Assembly (NCBI GenBank): GCA_017856815.1
Contig: JAFMEI010000003.1
Location: 1-40,594 of the forward strand
DNA: 40,594 nucleotides
Direction: 5' to 3'
Origin: Ilumatobacteraceae bacterium
Lineage (GTDB): Bacteria; Actinomycetota; Acidimicrobiia; Acidimicrobiales; Ilumatobacteraceae
This document shows positions 9,856-16,956 of the stretch, piece after piece. Every line of letters starts with the position of its first letter. The stretch's first letter is position 1. The notes under the pieces are model-generated. The model worked only from the letters and a program-made list of their open reading frames with translations, had not been told where the DNA came from and ran no database searches. The position numbers and the translations under genes are program-made.

Positions 9856-10213
9856 TCATCAGTGGCGTTCGGGCGCCATCACCACTGCGTTTGGCGTTAT
9901 TCCCGCATGTATCGCGCACACGCGTTCGTTACGCCGTCGCGGGCTACTCGGATTGGACAACTTCGATTCGATCCTCGTTTTGCCAAAAACTCGATGGATA
10001 CACACGTTGGGTATGCAATTTCCGATTGATGTGGCGCATCTGAACGCTTCGGGCTTGATCGTCGCAATGGAAACGGTGAAACCTAACCAAATCACTCGCC
10101 CGGTTCTGTCGGCTCAGGTGGTGCTGGAAAGTTACGCTGGCATGATGTTCCGACACGGTCTCCGTAAAGGTATGAATATCGCCGTGAATCACGCACCAAG
10201 TGCGGCAATCTGA
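9821..10213 (+). CDS. DUF192 family protein
   Basis: Small protein of 130 residues matching DUF192, a beta-rich family of unknown function often carrying the motifs RRRGLLG and IHTLGMQFPIDVAHL, both of which are present. The end has the usual LESYAGMMFRHGLRKG block. There is no signal peptide in this copy. The ATG at 9821 overlaps ychF by 35 nt and has GAGG at 9811-9814. No ATG, GTG or TTG exists in this frame between the ychF stop and the conserved core, so the overlapping start is the best choice. It shares one base with the rsmI start (TGATG). Confidence 0.82.
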   Translation: MATRWRSGSTSDHQWRSGAITTAFGVIPACIAHTRSLRRRGLLGLDNFDSILVLPKTRWIHTLGMQFPIDVAHLNASGLIVAMETVKPNQITRPVLSAQVVLESYAGMMFRHGLRKGMNIAVNHAPSAAI

Positions 10214-11049
10214 TGGGGAGTCTGTATGTGGTTGCCACGCCGATCGGCAACCTTGGAGATCTAACGCTGCGGGCAACTGAGACATTGAGCAACGTCGATG
10301 TGATCGCCTGCGAAGACACGCGGCGCACCGGAAACTTGCTTCGGCACATTGGCGCCAAAGAGTTCCGCTACATCGTTGTCAATGAGCACACCGAATACGA
10401 CGCCACGAAGCAGATCGTTGACGCGTTGAACAATGGCGATGATGTTGCGCTAGTCAGCGACGCAGGTACGCCAGGGATCAGTGACCCGGGTTCATTATTG
10501 GTGCAAGCGGCGATTGAAGCTGGACACCAAGTGGTGCCAATTCCAGGTGCTTCAGCATCGGTTTCTGCGTTATCAGTGAGTGGGATGGATTCACGTCGAT
10601 TCTTCTTTGAGGGATTCCTCCCCCGCGATGGGAAAGAACGCACCGATCGACTTGCTTTTTTGAAGTCCGTTCCGGTCACGACAGTTGTTTATGAAGCACC
10701 ACACCGCATTGCGAAAACCATGAACGACTTGCAGGAAAATTTGGGGGGCGAACGACGGGTTGTACTTGCGCGCGAGTTGACCAAAATCCACGAGGAAATC
10801 TGGCGCGGAAGTATCCGTGATGCCGTCGAACACTTTTCTAACGCAGAGCCGATTGGAGAGTATGTGATTCTCATTGAATCTGCTCCGCCGCGACCCGCAG
10901 TCACAGAGGACCTTATTGAAACAGCGCTAAAGAACGCACTCGTTGATGGTCGCAGTGTCAAAGATGCAGCCAACGATGTTGCGGATATGTTCCAGCTCCC
11001 AAAGCGTGACCTGTACGAACGCGCATTACGTCTACGGGGTCAGCGGTGA
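10213..11049 (+). CDS. rsmI: RsmI, 16S rRNA 2'-O-methyltransferase
   Basis: Methylates the ribose of C1402 in 16S rRNA using SAM. The 278 residues have the tetrapyrrole-methylase fold with the RsmI hallmarks: YVVATPIGNLGDLTLRA at the N-terminus, ACEDTRRTGNLLRHIG, the SDAGTPGISDPGS loop and VYEAPHRI. The C-terminal extension (NALVDGRSVKDAANDVADMF) is the typical helical domain. It is coupled to the DUF192 gene by one base and to the HAD gene by 4 nt (GTGA). Confidence 0.97.
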   Translation: MGSLYVVATPIGNLGDLTLRATETLSNVDVIACEDTRRTGNLLRHIGAKEFRYIVVNEHTEYDATKQIVDALNNGDDVALVSDAGTPGISDPGSLLVQAAIEAGHQVVPIPGASASVSALSVSGMDSRRFFFEGFLPRDGKERTDRLAFLKSVPVTTVVYEAPHRIAKTMNDLQENLGGERRVVLARELTKIHEEIWRGSIRDAVEHFSNAEPIGEYVILIESAPPRPAVTEDLIETALKNALVDGRSVKDAANDVADMFQLPKRDLYERALRLRGQR

Positions 11050-11744
11050 ACAAGCCCCGCATGTGGGCGCACCACTCAGTACTTTTTTTCGATCTGGACG
11101 GCGCTCTTATTGATTCCAAGTCCGGCATTGAAAAGGGGCTCAATGCAACCTTCGATATTTATGACCTTCCGCATGTGACCACCGATGAACTTTCTTGGAT
11201 TGTTGGACCACCCTTCCAAGTCACTGTGCCCCAACTATTAGGAGCACGAGATGCCCACCATCTCGATGTCGCAGAGTTCATCCGGGAATACCGCAAGATT
11301 TATGCCGACGGCATCATTCAAGAGACACCATTAATGCCGGGAATCGCGGCAATGCTGCAAGCGGTCAAGGAAGATTGGCCGTTGGCGATTGTCACTTCGA
11401 AACCCGAACCCCAGGCCCGAATAGTTCTTGAAACCACGGGCGTCATTGATCACTTCGACATAATCGTCGGTGCTCCGATGGATGAGAATGTGCGCAAGGC
11501 AGTCCTCTTGGCAAAAGCATGTGAATTGTTTGATGCCTCGCACAATTTGCGTCCTAAACATCCAAATTCGTGGATGATCGGTGATCGCCACCATGACATC
11601 GACGCCGCCACTGAAGAAGGTGTTTCATCAGTCGGTGTCATGTGGGGTTATGGCTCCCACGACGAATTCACCACCGCGGGTGCAACCCACATCGTGCACA
11701 AACCCGAAGAACTTCTACATTTGTTGCGAACCCAACTTCGCTGA
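11046..11744 (+). CDS. HAD-family phosphatase, phosphoglycolate phosphatase-like
   Basis: Cytosolic HAD hydrolase of 232 residues. Motif I is FFDLDGALID with Asp16 and Asp18; the usual Thr/Val after DxDG is Ala here. Motif II is the Ser of VTSKPEP, and motif IV is MIGDRHHDIDAA, with a cap domain between motifs I and II. The order and lengths match Gph/PgmB-type enzymes such as phosphoglycolate phosphatase. The exact substrate cannot be assigned. It starts at GTG 11046, overlapping the rsmI stop, so it is likely co-translated with rsmI. Confidence 0.88.
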   Translation: MNKPRMWAHHSVLFFDLDGALIDSKSGIEKGLNATFDIYDLPHVTTDELSWIVGPPFQVTVPQLLGARDAHHLDVAEFIREYRKIYADGIIQETPLMPGIAAMLQAVKEDWPLAIVTSKPEPQARIVLETTGVIDHFDIIVGAPMDENVRKAVLLAKACELFDASHNLRPKHPNSWMIGDRHHDIDAATEEGVSSVGVMWGYGSHDEFTTAGATHIVHKPEELLHLLRTQLR

Positions 11745-11789: not shown

Positions 11790-14567
11790 ATGGGTGTCAA
11801 GCGTTTCAAAGCGCTGATCGGTAGGCGCGGAGCTTGGCTGCTTGTTGCAGGCATCGTTGCAGCTGCTGCAATCTCATTTGCCAACCAGCCATCCAAACAG
11901 ATCTGGAAACATGAATGGAAGGCGGTGACTGATCCACTCGATACGCCGCTTCCACTTGCAGACTCCCCCGTTCACTCTTTGCACTTCACCATGCAGTGCC
12001 CTGAAGTCACGCAAGGCTCACAAACATTGCTTTCATTGTCTGCATCACCGGGAGCACTCCAGTCGTTTCGGTTAGTACAGAAAATTGACACACTGCATCT
12101 TGAATTTGAGGGCGAGACAATTGCCGATCAGCTTCTAACCGATGATGAGTGTGACGTTGAACTCTTATTCAATGACAAGACCAGCGAAGCAACTTTTCGA
12201 GTCGGAGATTTAGCGCAAGTCATCGGCATCGATCGTGGTGACTCGTTATACGCCGCCCCAAGAATCACAGGGATACACGCCGTCGATGCACTGCGTCTAC
12301 TTGATGCACGTCTGACGCTGGAAGTTCAAACTGCTGAGACACAACCTGAAAGTGAGCAACTAGCCGCCTTCTATGTGGCCGTTGGACTACTAATGCTTCT
12401 GTTGGTGCTGACTCGTGCCCTCAGCAAAAAGCACACTTACGCCTTTGCCATCGGCCCGCCAGCTTTGTCGACCAGTCGAACATGGCCCGCAACGGCCCTA
12501 GTTGCCTTCACGACTCTCTGCGGAATGTTTATTGCTCCGCCCATGATCGATGATGGCTGGCTGACAACGATGGGACGCAAGTTCAGTGCACTTGGATATG
12601 TAACTAACTACTTCCACAATGCATGGCCCGCGATGCCACAGGGACATTGGCTGACCGCACTAAGCCAGTTATGGCTCGATACAGCAGAGAACGCTCTGCT
12701 TATGCGTTCAGCTTCCGCAATCGCAGCGATCGCGTCTTGGTTGATCCTAAAGCGGTGGGTATTGCAGCCGATTGCTGCGAACTGCAATTCAAAACTCCCG
12801 ATCTACTTTGCTGCAGTTGTTTACCTTCCATGGGTTGCCGTACCGATGATGACTCTTCGCTACGAGCCAATAATCGTGCTCTTGTGGTCCATAGGTCTTG
12901 CTGGCGTAATGCAAGTGTTCAAAAGTGGCTCGCCATTAGCCTTTGCAACGGTCTTGGTAGTTGGTGCACTTGGCGTAATGGCTCACCAAACAGGATGGGT
13001 TGTCGTGTCACTGTCCATCGTGGCGACTGTTGCACTGGTTCAGCACCAGCGCGCTGGACACCAAGTTCCGTGGTCACTCCATGCAGCAACCATGGTGGCG
13101 GTTGTCGGCACGGCATTCAATTCGTTGATTCTTGACAACCGAGTGAGTGACCTGTTTCGCTCCGCCGGTGATTTTTCCGACGCCCGTGCTTACCAAAAGT
13201 CGGCTTTGAGTATCGAGCATTGGCTCACAGGGCTCAACAACTCAGCGACGATCCGTGCATTTGCGGTACTTGGTTTCCTGGCACTCTTCGCCGTTGGATT
13301 GAGGCGGCGCGCAACTGAAGCCCCGTCAATGAAGTTGCTGCGGTTGGTTGTGATCCTCGCACTTGCATCCACAGTGATTAATGCAAGCAAATGGATTTGG
13401 CACCTAACTGTGCTCGCGCCCGTGGCATGCGTGCTTGCAGCTCTGGTTGCAATCGACGTACTTAATGACTACGACACACCAAAATTCAAGAACAGGATTC
13501 AACTACTTGCCTTAGCTGCATCAATCACAGCGGGAATCGCAATCACACGCGATACCAACATTGAAGCCGACTTCAAGAGCAGTTGGGTTCTGATCCCTCT
13601 CGCTGCAGTGGCATTGATTCCGCTTCTCCTGCGCATGAAGCGCTCGGAGTCAAAAGATATGAAGTCATTTGGTGGTCGGTTGGCACTTTGCTCAGTAATG
13701 CTGTCAACCACGATCGTTATTGGATCAAGTTGGGTTCCGCGTTTGGCTGACGTGAACGACACTCATTGGAGCATGCTCTACCAAAATCTGCGCAGCATTA
13801 ATCATGCAAATGAGTGTGGCGTGATGGAGCATTTTGACGCGACGACTCCTGGCGATCCGTTGCCAGTTTCAGAATCTCGAGCGCCTGACGTGGCATTCCC
13901 GCCAGCCAAACTACGTGGAGTCGACACCACTCCAGTTGGTGGGCTCAACTCGTACACATCCGCTGACCCGAACGATCCTGCTTTCGTTGGCCGTGTCGCC
14001 ACACCTTGGCAGTCGGTTGCCGGTGCTGACGAAGTCGTGTTCTGGGCTCTTGGTAATTACGACGAGCAGCCGAACGTGAAAGTTGTTGCCCGCGATGCGA
14101 GTGGTGAAATTTCCGAAGTTGAGTTGGAACCACTACTTATTCCCGACGAATCAGTGCGGCCCACGAATGACCTCAACCAACCTGCGGTGGATTCCTCGCC
14201 AATGTGGATATTGCACCGTGTGCAGGTACCTGCAGGAGCAGTAGAACTTTCAATCCGGCTGTTCGATACTTCAGCTGAGCCGAATAAATGGGAGGCAGCG
14301 ACGGTCCTTGCCGAGCCCAACACGCGCACCTTGCGTTACTTGCATGATGTCAATCCAACACAGACCTATGTCGAGCCTTCGGTTCTCATGTTCACTCCAT
14401 GTGTTCAGGAACCAGACATCGAACGCGGATTAGTCACTGATGTACGCCTCATCGTTGGTCAACGCACGTGGGGCTTTGGTTACCTGAGCTTTGAATACAC
14501 CCGTCTAGAAGTCGGTTGTAAAGAAATTGAGGAACTCAAATACGTTTGCGCTTACCTGATTCAGTAA
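11790..14567 (+). CDS. Emb-like arabinosyltransferase, large membrane protein
   Basis: A 925-residue polytopic protein resembling the EmbA/B/C arabinofuranosyltransferases (GT-C fold) that build arabinan in mycobacterial cell walls. It has an N-terminal membrane helix (about 13-31), an extracytoplasmic domain to about 185, then a helix and a multi-pass region (about 190-620) followed by a soluble C-terminal domain (about 640-925). The key shared stretch is APPMIDDGWLTTMGRKF, with Asp254-Asp255 in the place of the acidic catalytic pair, followed by NYFHNAWPAMPQGHW. The TLRYEPIIVLLW block matches the Emb LRPEP region. The assignment is by remembered motif similarity, not a search. Emb proteins exceed 1,000 residues, so this copy is short. 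No other arabinan genes are nearby. The gene runs 7 bp into the 3' end of the convergent thioesterase gene. Confidence 0.75.
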   Translation: MGVKRFKALIGRRGAWLLVAGIVAAAAISFANQPSKQIWKHEWKAVTDPLDTPLPLADSPVHSLHFTMQCPEVTQGSQTLLSLSASPGALQSFRLVQKIDTLHLEFEGETIADQLLTDDECDVELLFNDKTSEATFRVGDLAQVIGIDRGDSLYAAPRITGIHAVDALRLLDARLTLEVQTAETQPESEQLAAFYVAVGLLMLLLVLTRALSKKHTYAFAIGPPALSTSRTWPATALVAFTTLCGMFIAPPMIDDGWLTTMGRKFSALGYVTNYFHNAWPAMPQGHWLTALSQLWLDTAENALLMRSASAIAAIASWLILKRWVLQPIAANCNSKLPIYFAAVVYLPWVAVPMMTLRYEPIIVLLWSIGLAGVMQVFKSGSPLAFATVLVVGALGVMAHQTGWVVVSLSIVATVALVQHQRAGHQVPWSLHAATMVAVVGTAFNSLILDNRVSDLFRSAGDFSDARAYQKSALSIEHWLTGLNNSATIRAFAVLGFLALFAVGLRRRATEAPSMKLLRLVVILALASTVINASKWIWHLTVLAPVACVLAALVAIDVLNDYDTPKFKNRIQLLALAASITAGIAITRDTNIEADFKSSWVLIPLAAVALIPLLLRMKRSESKDMKSFGGRLALCSVMLSTTIVIGSSWVPRLADVNDTHWSMLYQNLRSINHANECGVMEHFDATTPGDPLPVSESRAPDVAFPPAKLRGVDTTPVGGLNSYTSADPNDPAFVGRVATPWQSVAGADEVVFWALGNYDEQPNVKVVARDASGEISEVELEPLLIPDESVRPTNDLNQPAVDSSPMWILHRVQVPAGAVELSIRLFDTSAEPNKWEAATVLAEPNTRTLRYLHDVNPTQTYVEPSVLMFTPCVQEPDIERGLVTDVRLIVGQRTWGFGYLSFEYTRLEVGCKEIEELKYVCAYLIQ

Positions 14568-15385
14568 TCAGCAAGTGGCATCGCTGCGATCTGGCGCGAA
14601 ATAGCAATTAAGTTGCCGTTCTCGTCCCAAATTTCGCCGTCTTCTTCAACTAATCCATTTTTTACAAACCGCGAAGAGAACGATGTTGCGAGCCTCGTAC
14701 CAGTTGGTATTTGTCGGTAGTGAACTGTGAGTTCGATGGTTGGCACCCAACCCGCTTGGCCGACCAGGTTGAACACCGCAGGCGCGGTTGCATCAGCGGC
14801 GATGAAGGTAGAAAGTGCATCCATCGGACGATCATCTGGAAATGCGAACCACGCACGCATAGTGCCTTGGCCATTTGGCTGATTCAAAACGAAGCCAACA
14901 TCTTCTGGGGATAGTCGTAGGGCGAGCCGTTGCATCAACTGTGGGCCGCTACCACTCGCATCGGTAACCAGAGATTCATACGGAGGAATCTGTGGCGGTT
15001 GACCTTTGACAATCTCACGACCAATCGACTGAAGATTGCCAAAGGCGCCCATGGCCGTGATGGCAATACGTCCGTCTGAATTTCCCGAAGGATCATCGAT
15101 CGTGAGTTTGGCAATCATTGAGTTCGTGAGTCGACCACGCTTTACAGTTTCCACTTCAATTCGCGCCCGACCGGGCGGCACAGGCATCAGATAATGAACC
15201 GTGATGGTGTACGGATCGGGGCGCCCTCCGTGGAGTTGCATCGCGCGCATCATCACTGCGCCGATATAGCCACCGTTGGCCGCACCGTAGATGTCCCAGC
15301 CATCGAGAATCTCGGCTTCGTATTGCCCAACCGTGTCATCACCACCAACTTTTGTGACCTTGGTTGCGCGATCAAACTCAAACAT
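14561..15385 (-). CDS. Acyl-CoA thioesterase family protein (double hotdog)
   Basis: A 274-residue TesB-like thioesterase, predicted to hydrolyse an acyl-CoA. The first hotdog has GWDIYGAANGGYIGAVMMRAM, the helix with the family's Asn-Gly-Gly, followed by DPYTITVHYLMPVPPGRA. The second, from about residue 155, has MDALSTFIAADATAPAVFN and WVPTIELTVHYRQIP. The substrate chain length is unknown. Its promoter is probably TACGAT at 15395-15400 on the minus strand, 9 nt before the ATG, back to back with the metG promoter in a 50-bp gap. It ends tail to tail with the arabinosyltransferase-like gene with a 7-bp overlap. Confidence 0.85.
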   Translation of the reverse strand: MFEFDRATKVTKVGGDDTVGQYEAEILDGWDIYGAANGGYIGAVMMRAMQLHGGRPDPYTITVHYLMPVPPGRARIEVETVKRGRLTNSMIAKLTIDDPSGNSDGRIAITAMGAFGNLQSIGREIVKGQPPQIPPYESLVTDASGSGPQLMQRLALRLSPEDVGFVLNQPNGQGTMRAWFAFPDDRPMDALSTFIAADATAPAVFNLVGQAGWVPTIELTVHYRQIPTGTRLATSFSSRFVKNGLVEEDGEIWDENGNLIAISRQIAAMPLADY

Positions 15386-15435: not shown

Positions 15436-16956
15436 GTGCCGCGGTTTTCGTTGACAACTCCCATCTATTACGTAAACGCCAAGCCTCACCTTGGTCACGC
15501 ATACACGACCATCGTTGCCGATGCGGTGGCACGCTGGCACAGGATGCTCGGAGAGGACGTTCACTTCCTGACGGGCACCGACGAACACGGTCTCAAGATT
15601 CAACAAGCTGCTGATGCGGCTGGGGTGTCTCCGCAACAATTCGCCGACGACATCGCGCCACTTTTCCAACAAGCTTGGGAGCGGCTTGGCATCACTAACG
15701 ATGACTTCATTCGCACAACAGAAAATCGCCACAAAGTTGGGGTCCAAAAACTCCTACAGGCATGCCACGACGCCGGCGACATAGAACTAGATGTCTATCG
15801 GGGTCTCTACTGTGTGCCCTGCGAGGCTTACTACACCGAAGAAGAATTGGTCGCTGAGAGCGGTGCGAGCAATCTCTGTCCGATCCACAAAAAACCCGTA
15901 GATGCAGTTGAAGAGGAAAACTACTTCTTTCGACTTTCACGGTTCGAGGATCGATTGCTCAAGTGGTATGCAGATCACCCAACGGCGATAACACCGCAAC
16001 ACCGGATGAACGAAGTCGTGGGATTCATCAAGCAAGGCTTGAATGACTTCTCGGTAAGCCGTAAGACCCTGAAGTGGGGCGTGCCACTCCCCTTTGATGA
16101 ATCGCACGTTGCCTACGTGTGGTTTGACGCACTTTCCAATTACCTCACTGCAATTGGTTATGGAACCGATGATGCGAAATTCAAGTCATGGTGGCCAGTT
16201 GATTTTCATCTCATTGGAAAAGACATCATCCGTTTTCATTGCGTGTACTGGCCAGCGATGCTCATGTCTGCCGGCATTGAGCCACCAAAGGGCTGGGCTG
16301 TTGGTGGCTGGCTACTAGTCGGTGGCGAGAAGATGAGTAAGACCTCTGGAAATGTGGTTAATCCTCTCGACCTAATTGATGATTTTGGGGTTGACGGTTT
16401 TCGCTACTACGTACTGGCTGAAACCCCATACGGGAACGATGGCGACTTCACATACGAAGGTCTTGTCGCTCGCTATAACTCTGATCTTGCAAACAACCTC
16501 GGCAACCTTCTCGCGAGGGTTGCAACTGTTGTTGGAAAGAAATGTGATGGCATAGGTCCGAGACCATCGGAATCCAGCCCTCTTGCGGCATCCGCAAAAG
16601 AGGCAGTGGCTGCTGCACAATCTGCATGGTCTGCGGTGCAGCCGAGCAAAGCTCTTGATGCAACTTGGCAACTCATTAGAGCCACTAACTCCCATCTTGA
16701 AAACAACGAGCCCTGGAAAGCAGAGCCTGGGCCGACAGTTGACGCCGTAATGGGCGACGCGCTGGAAGCTCTTCGGATCGTTGCTCTCCTCACTTTTGCC
16801 GCGGTACCAACAACTGCCCAAGCAATCTGGGAACGAATTGGCATGAGTGGAGATGTGTCCGAGCAGCGACTCCCCGATGCTGCGGCATGGGGCGGATATC
16901 CAGGCGGTGTTCAAGTCACCAAGGGTGAATCACTGTTCCCGCGCAAGCAGGCCTGA
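15436..16956 (+). CDS. metG: Methionyl-tRNA synthetase
   Basis: Charges tRNA-Met with methionine. The 506-residue class I synthetase has the HIGH-type motif HLGH at 18-21, a metal-binding knuckle Cys126-x2-Cys129 with Cys148 and His151, and the KMSKS-type motif KMSKT at 299-303. The anticodon-binding helical domain follows, and there is no C-terminal EMAP-type tRNA-binding extension. The GTG start is supported by the -10 box 6 nt upstream and by the N-terminal TTPIYYVNAKPHLGH block beginning right after it. It leads the metG-tatD-X-rsmA-ispE run that is common in Gram-positive bacteria. Confidence 0.97.
   Translation: MPRFSLTTPIYYVNAKPHLGHAYTTIVADAVARWHRMLGEDVHFLTGTDEHGLKIQQAADAAGVSPQQFADDIAPLFQQAWERLGITNDDFIRTTENRHKVGVQKLLQACHDAGDIELDVYRGLYCVPCEAYYTEEELVAESGASNLCPIHKKPVDAVEEENYFFRLSRFEDRLLKWYADHPTAITPQHRMNEVVGFIKQGLNDFSVSRKTLKWGVPLPFDESHVAYVWFDALSNYLTAIGYGTDDAKFKSWWPVDFHLIGKDIIRFHCVYWPAMLMSAGIEPPKGWAVGGWLLVGGEKMSKTSGNVVNPLDLIDDFGVDGFRYYVLAETPYGNDGDFTYEGLVARYNSDLANNLGNLLARVATVVGKKCDGIGPRPSESSPLAASAKEAVAAAQSAWSAVQPSKALDATWQLIRATNSHLENNEPWKAEPGPTVDAVMGDALEALRIVALLTFAAVPTTAQAIWERIGMSGDVSEQRLPDAAAWGGYPGGVQVTKGESLFPRKQA

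Follow-up and report, generated by a model that had tools for sequence, protein, structure and literature searches.

Whether a relative of the Emb proteins, the target of ethambutol, is at work outside the mycolate bacteria, and on which sugar, is the question raised by a gene at 11,790–14,567 (+ strand) of the 40,594-nt stretch of DNA analyzed here (the window). The host genome is a 1.83-Mb Acidimicrobiia metagenome-assembled genome (MAG) in 171 contigs, 96.6% complete. An earlier note on this DNA described the product (925 amino acids plus a stop codon, as found here) as a shorter, solitary Emb relative outside the usual mycolate bacteria, and proposed that it serves a simpler arabinosylated polymer. 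The relationship has been borne out and the gene is a real, divergent member of the family, probably gained laterally; the polymer is a more complicated matter. A structural paper from 2020, citing work from 2005, states that Emb proteins resemble nothing outside mycobacteria and related genera (PMC7305291), and no paper in the library searched connects arabinosyltransferases with Acidimicrobiia.

Membership in the family is clear from several kinds of comparison. Pfam model PF04602 (Arabinose_trans) matches residues 191–585 with 72.6 bits against a curated cut-off of 25 (E = 3.9e-20), while none of the NCBIfam models match the protein. A phmmer search of PDB sequences returned solely Emb chains (EmbC 1.4e-12, EmbB 3.6e-9, EmbA 3.4e-5); these are 1084–1116 aa long, so the window protein is indeed shorter, by about 160–190 aa. 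A profile made from it and eight non-mycobacterial relatives gave an almost full-length alignment with EmbC (E = 7.5e-59) and also aligned with EmbB and EmbA. The AlphaFold2 (AF2) model is of low confidence (pLDDT 47); a fold search with it gave Emb chains for all ten best PDB matches (E down to 1.1e-16, TMq ~0.47), followed by ArnT. The profile and structure comparisons that the note had suggested thus agree on the family. A chance motif match is ruled out by these PF04602, PDB sequence, profile, and fold matches, and an AftD mistaken for an Emb is ruled out as well, since AftD is encoded elsewhere, by genes of its own on contig C74.

The low-confidence model also has the Emb layout: one N-terminal helix, a beta domain at about 38–180, a helical GT-C region at 188–653, and a second beta domain at about 706–824. 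The putative N-terminal extracytoplasmic beta domain (residues 33–186; 11,886–12,347, +), counterpart of the Emb N-CBM, contains the first set of strands, and the profile match places it collinear with Emb. It is followed by the transmembrane GT-C region (residues 187–655; 12,348–13,754, +), with the PF04602 match and the helices, and by a putative C-terminal extracytoplasmic beta domain (residues 656–925; 13,755–14,564, +), counterpart of the C-CBM. This last part aligns weakly with EmbC in phmmer and is collinear with it in the profile match; PF14896, the EmbC-type C-terminal domain, does not match it, and matches two of nine non-mycobacterial members. The di-arabinoside-binding W985 of EmbC (PMC3044687) has no kept equivalent. 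A Trp is present in the W868 region (W739), in a register checked by residue spacing only.

The gene stands alone beside rsmI and a thioesterase, as the note had it. Upstream are rsmI (10,213–11,049, +) and a HAD hydrolase gene (HAD_2; 11,046–11,744, +); downstream are an acyl-CoA thioesterase gene (4HBT_3/4HBT_3C; 14,561–15,385, −), overlapping the end of the Emb-like gene by 7 nt, and its conserved neighbor metG (15,436–16,956, +). There is a single PF04602 gene in the genome, and no embCAB-type cluster. In a second species of the genus (G395) this locus holds a copy with 90% identity, with a dN/dS of 0.118 between the two (dS ~0.43) and values of 0.10–0.13 across all three parts of the protein. 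The gene is under purifying selection, and neither chance nor an assembly artefact can account for it; contamination is likewise ruled out by the same arrangement in the second MAG. A decayed or inactive copy without function, for which the altered donor-pocket residues described below and a C-terminal domain too divergent for PF14896 might be cited, is very improbable given this constraint in two species, the intact catalytic residues, and the identical locus in both.

Among 61 genomes of the family searched, the Emb-like gene was found in two, both of the window genus, and was absent from all 59 outside it. The metG-thioesterase-(HAD)-rsmI locus is conserved in relatives without the gene; in several genera the thioesterase lies just 6–46 bp from the next gene, and in genus g11, where the Emb-like gene is absent, the HAD hydrolase gene abuts the thioesterase. 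This points to insertion of a single gene, probably by lateral transfer. Other genera have a different, HAD-IB-like phosphatase gene between thioesterase and rsmI (L073, L078, L081, L086), which makes gene exchange at this site seem easy. Old vertical inheritance with loss from every other genus of the family, which would be compatible with either donor discussed below, might be argued from a GC content that is not foreign (0.523, vs. 0.540 for the window) and from gene edges in which no repeats were found. It is nonetheless unlikely, considering the 59 genomes without the gene, the closely abutting neighbors, and the mere six of 395 genomes of the class that match PF04602. Insertion by a mobile element was rejected, as the edges have no repeats and the GC content no shift, and no viral relatives of the protein were found.

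For the active site, residues were given the numbers of M. smegmatis EmbB, with mycobacterial sequences as a check on the mapping and with roles taken from published work (PMC7305291, PMC7341804). The motifs listed in the note are all present: IDDGW at residues 253–257, NYF at 273–275, and LRxEP, as LRYEP, at 356–360. The catalytic acidic pair (DDX) is D254/D255 (12,549–12,554, +), equivalent to EmbB D285/D286, and the strictly conserved R389 and E391 correspond to R357 and E359 in the LRYEP block (12,855–12,869, +). Equivalents of N304, W578, and H581 are also kept in the alignment, the last as H538 in the sequence SKWIWH (13,386–13,403, +). The catalytic core is intact.

The sugar pocket is different. 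Three EmbB residues that contact the arabinose of decaprenyl-phospho-arabinofuranose (DPA) are not retained: E313 falls in a gap, Q431 is replaced by H399 in the sequence HQTG (12,984–12,995, +), and H580 by W537. Y320 (T) and W504 (Y468) are altered too, and the phosphate contact R495 has no clear alignment. The three arabinose contacts bear on DPA use rather than on family membership. The E313 loss, the H580 replacement, and the change of Q431 to His are common to the non-mycobacterial members compared. Note however that Q431 is also missing from EmbA- and EmbC-type proteins, so that this position by itself says little. The GYxxNYF motif around N304, on the other hand, is shared by the window protein and mycobacterial Emb, and not by the Emb-like proteins of another Acidimicrobiia family (f31). 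Since its pocket residues are as in Emb-like proteins from genomes without DPA genes, "arabinosyltransferase" is a plausible name for the window protein, though not an established one.

The genome does have genes for DPA, as the note had suggested checking. DPPR synthase (NF008978, 349 bits vs. a cut-off of 207), DprE1 (NF053785, 586 vs. 500), and the adjacent DprE2 (NF053786, 272 vs. 250) are all above their NCBIfam cut-offs, with PDB matches to the Rv3806c-type 8j8j, DprE1 4aut, and DprE2 21gq, respectively. Immediately ahead of the DPPR synthase gene is one for a HAD-IB phosphatase (L017, 6768–8294; G000:C40), which perhaps takes the role of Rv3807c, by analogy to a HAD phosphoribose phosphatase described elsewhere (PMC11127046). 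With a PF04602 match and a full donor route, neither of the results that the note named as refuting its reading, no profile match and no donor pathway, was obtained. Contig C74 (L016, G000:C74; 379–2587 and 3346–15,857) carries the DprE1-DprE2 pair and the genes of two ~1385-aa AftD-like proteins. It also encodes a DPM-like GT2 and proteins of PMT_2 type, and the whole is read as an Acidimicrobiia arabinan cluster. The Emb-like gene is not linked to any of the DPA genes. In the genus mate G395, DprE1 is present and DPPR synthase was not found in the bin, which is 89% complete.

AftA (PF12250) was found in none of 13 genomes of the family, this one included, with a positive C. glutamicum control, so an AftA-primed arabinogalactan is not supported; two AftD-like enzymes and no AftA would fit an arabinan unlike arabinogalactan. 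DprE1 is above its cut-off in 127 of the 395 genomes of the class, and AftD is present in 31 of 41 genomes of the family. An arabinan is therefore likely across much of the family, and its machinery, common in genomes without any Emb, does not hang on the Emb-like gene. To this extent the note's simpler arabinosylated polymer is half right; its tie to the Emb-like gene, which is confined to one genus, is plausible but not supported in the form proposed.

In a sample of the phylum, PF04602 matches 19 of 397 genomes. Most are from a single family (f83), read as Mycobacteriaceae, with several copies per genome, best scores near 700 bits, and the residues of mycobacterial EmbB/EmbC. Of the six matching genomes within the class, four are above the cut-off. 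Five other non-mycobacterial carriers were compared: three f31 Acidimicrobiia (G026, G125, and G241), a Micromonosporaceae MAG, and a Gulosibacter MAG. None of the five has DPPR synthase or DprE1 above the cut-off, although the Gulosibacter MAG is only 1.2 Mb, and the window genus alone among non-mycobacterial carriers has DPA. In all five, polyprenyl-phosphate-type GT2 genes (ArnC/GtrB/DPM-type) are found near the emb genes; the best PDB matches in three are ArnC (2.8e-47), DPM synthase (5e-15), and ArnC (1.6e-8), and the other two have ArnC-like NCBIfam scores. This suggests donors derived from NDP-sugars in these genomes, bearing in mind how frequent GT2 genes are in loci of this kind. A tree of the GT-C core only, with L036 left out, separates mycobacterial from non-mycobacterial Emb with 100/100 support. 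Its branches are long, and there is no resolved order among the window pair, f31, Micromonosporaceae, and Gulosibacter.

The explanation preferred here, with a chance slightly above even, is a functional Emb-family GT-C gained as a single gene, most likely drawing on DPA and adding arabinose to an existing arabinan. The gene would have entered the ancestor of this Acidimicrobiia genus by lateral transfer. Its product would be a cytoplasmic-membrane protein whose D254/D255 pair faces outward, and would transfer a sugar from a polyprenyl-phosphate carrier to a surface glycan bound by its N- and C-terminal carbohydrate-binding domains. Most likely the DPA already made by the host for its AftD-like enzymes would be the donor, and the protein would add or branch arabinose on arabinan already there. 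As to the donor itself, arabinose from DPA is slightly favored and another polyprenyl-phosphate sugar is a serious rival. A lone gene without donor genes of its own needs a pre-existing donor, and DPA was present; the GYxxNYF motif, the kept catalytic residues, the full DPA route, and the AftD-like genes beside DprE1/DprE2 count in the same direction. Counting against are the replaced E313, Q431, and H580, the uncertain R495, the lost W985, the carriers without DPA, the lack of linkage between emb and DPA genes, the missing AftA, and the low confidence of the AF2 model.

The rival, itself quite possible if somewhat short of an even chance, is that the protein is an Emb-family GT-C with a non-DPA donor, acting as third component of a GtrA/GtrB-like system on a polyprenyl-phosphate sugar (an aminodeoxyhexose, mannose, or glucose, for example) that a GT2 of ArnC/GtrB/DPM type would supply from an NDP-sugar, while the DPA route of the genome serves the AftD-like enzymes only. 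It draws on the other five carriers, with their missing DPA genes and their ArnC- and DPM synthase-like GT2 neighbors, one of them with a GtrA-domain protein and another with a dTDP-4-amino-4,6-dideoxygalactose transaminase, and on the pocket changes that their proteins share with this one. However, no GT2 or sugar-nucleotide gene lies beside the window gene, polysaccharide loci often contain GT2 genes, one pocket change does not amount to another sugar when Q431 is also missing in EmbC- and EmbA-type proteins, and the window genus is the one non-mycobacterial carrier with DPA. In its general form, which can be held only tentatively, this rival would make the non-mycobacterial Emb proteins a clade whose members glycosylate at the outer face independently of DPA, by means of a re-shaped sugar pocket and GtrB/ArnC-type partners, the window protein moving a sugar other than arabinose. 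If so, the Emb family would be broader than mycolate arabinan synthesis. Under the DPA reading as under its rival, an intact small Acidimicrobiia homologue and its cousins in genomes without DPA amount to natural donor-pocket variants, with which one can ask which residues set the choice of sugar and where the Emb family arose.

Compared with known systems, the protein is like EmbA, EmbB, and EmbC of mycobacteria and corynebacteria in its GT-C fold, acidic pair, R389/E391, SKW..H block, two terminal beta domains, and near end-to-end collinearity. It differs in being shorter and single-copy, outside any embCAB cluster, in lacking E313/Q431/H580 and EmbC W985, in belonging to a separate clade, and in coming from a genome without AftA. 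The AftD enzymes (PF11847) are likewise GT-C arabinosyltransferases of DPA type and have carbohydrate-binding modules, but they belong to another Pfam family, are longer, and are widespread in the bacterial family. The f31 Emb-like genes are on the same, non-mycobacterial side of the tree and encode the same pocket changes; unlike the window gene, they are part of polysaccharide clusters, with as many as four tandem copies, and their genomes lack both DprE1 and DPPR synthase. Three-component systems for pentofuranose and hexose modification (GtrA/GtrB/GT-C; PPPRS + PRP + GT136; PMC11127046) also have an outer-face GT-C using a polyprenyl-phosphate sugar, and a UbiA-type synthase beside a HAD phosphatase is found here too (L014), but the window GT-C is of the Emb sequence family and is not clustered with donor genes. 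The Gtr-type arrangement of a GT-C with a polyprenyl-phosphate GT2 and a flippase is absent from the window locus; it is seen at the Gulosibacter locus, with the other four carriers having the GT2 alone.

Some of these loci have features of their own. The Gulosibacter one (L035, 187–8118), with a GtrA-domain protein, NAD epimerases, a fused GT2, and the Emb-like gene, looks like a three-component glycosylation system. That of G241 (L020, 6733–18,473; G241:C30) has four tandem Emb-like genes, an ArnC-like GT2, a GNAT protein, and the transaminase mentioned above (dTDP-Fuc4N-type; 449 bits vs. a cut-off of 375); DprE1 and DPPR synthase are both missing from this genome. In G026 a second Emb-like copy is broken by a stop or frameshift (L018, 12,603–13,301; G026:C7:119348-119668). 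JACZWZ010000083 (L032/L019), deposited as Acidobacteria, groups with the class Acidimicrobiia, and an error in the submitter's label is probable.
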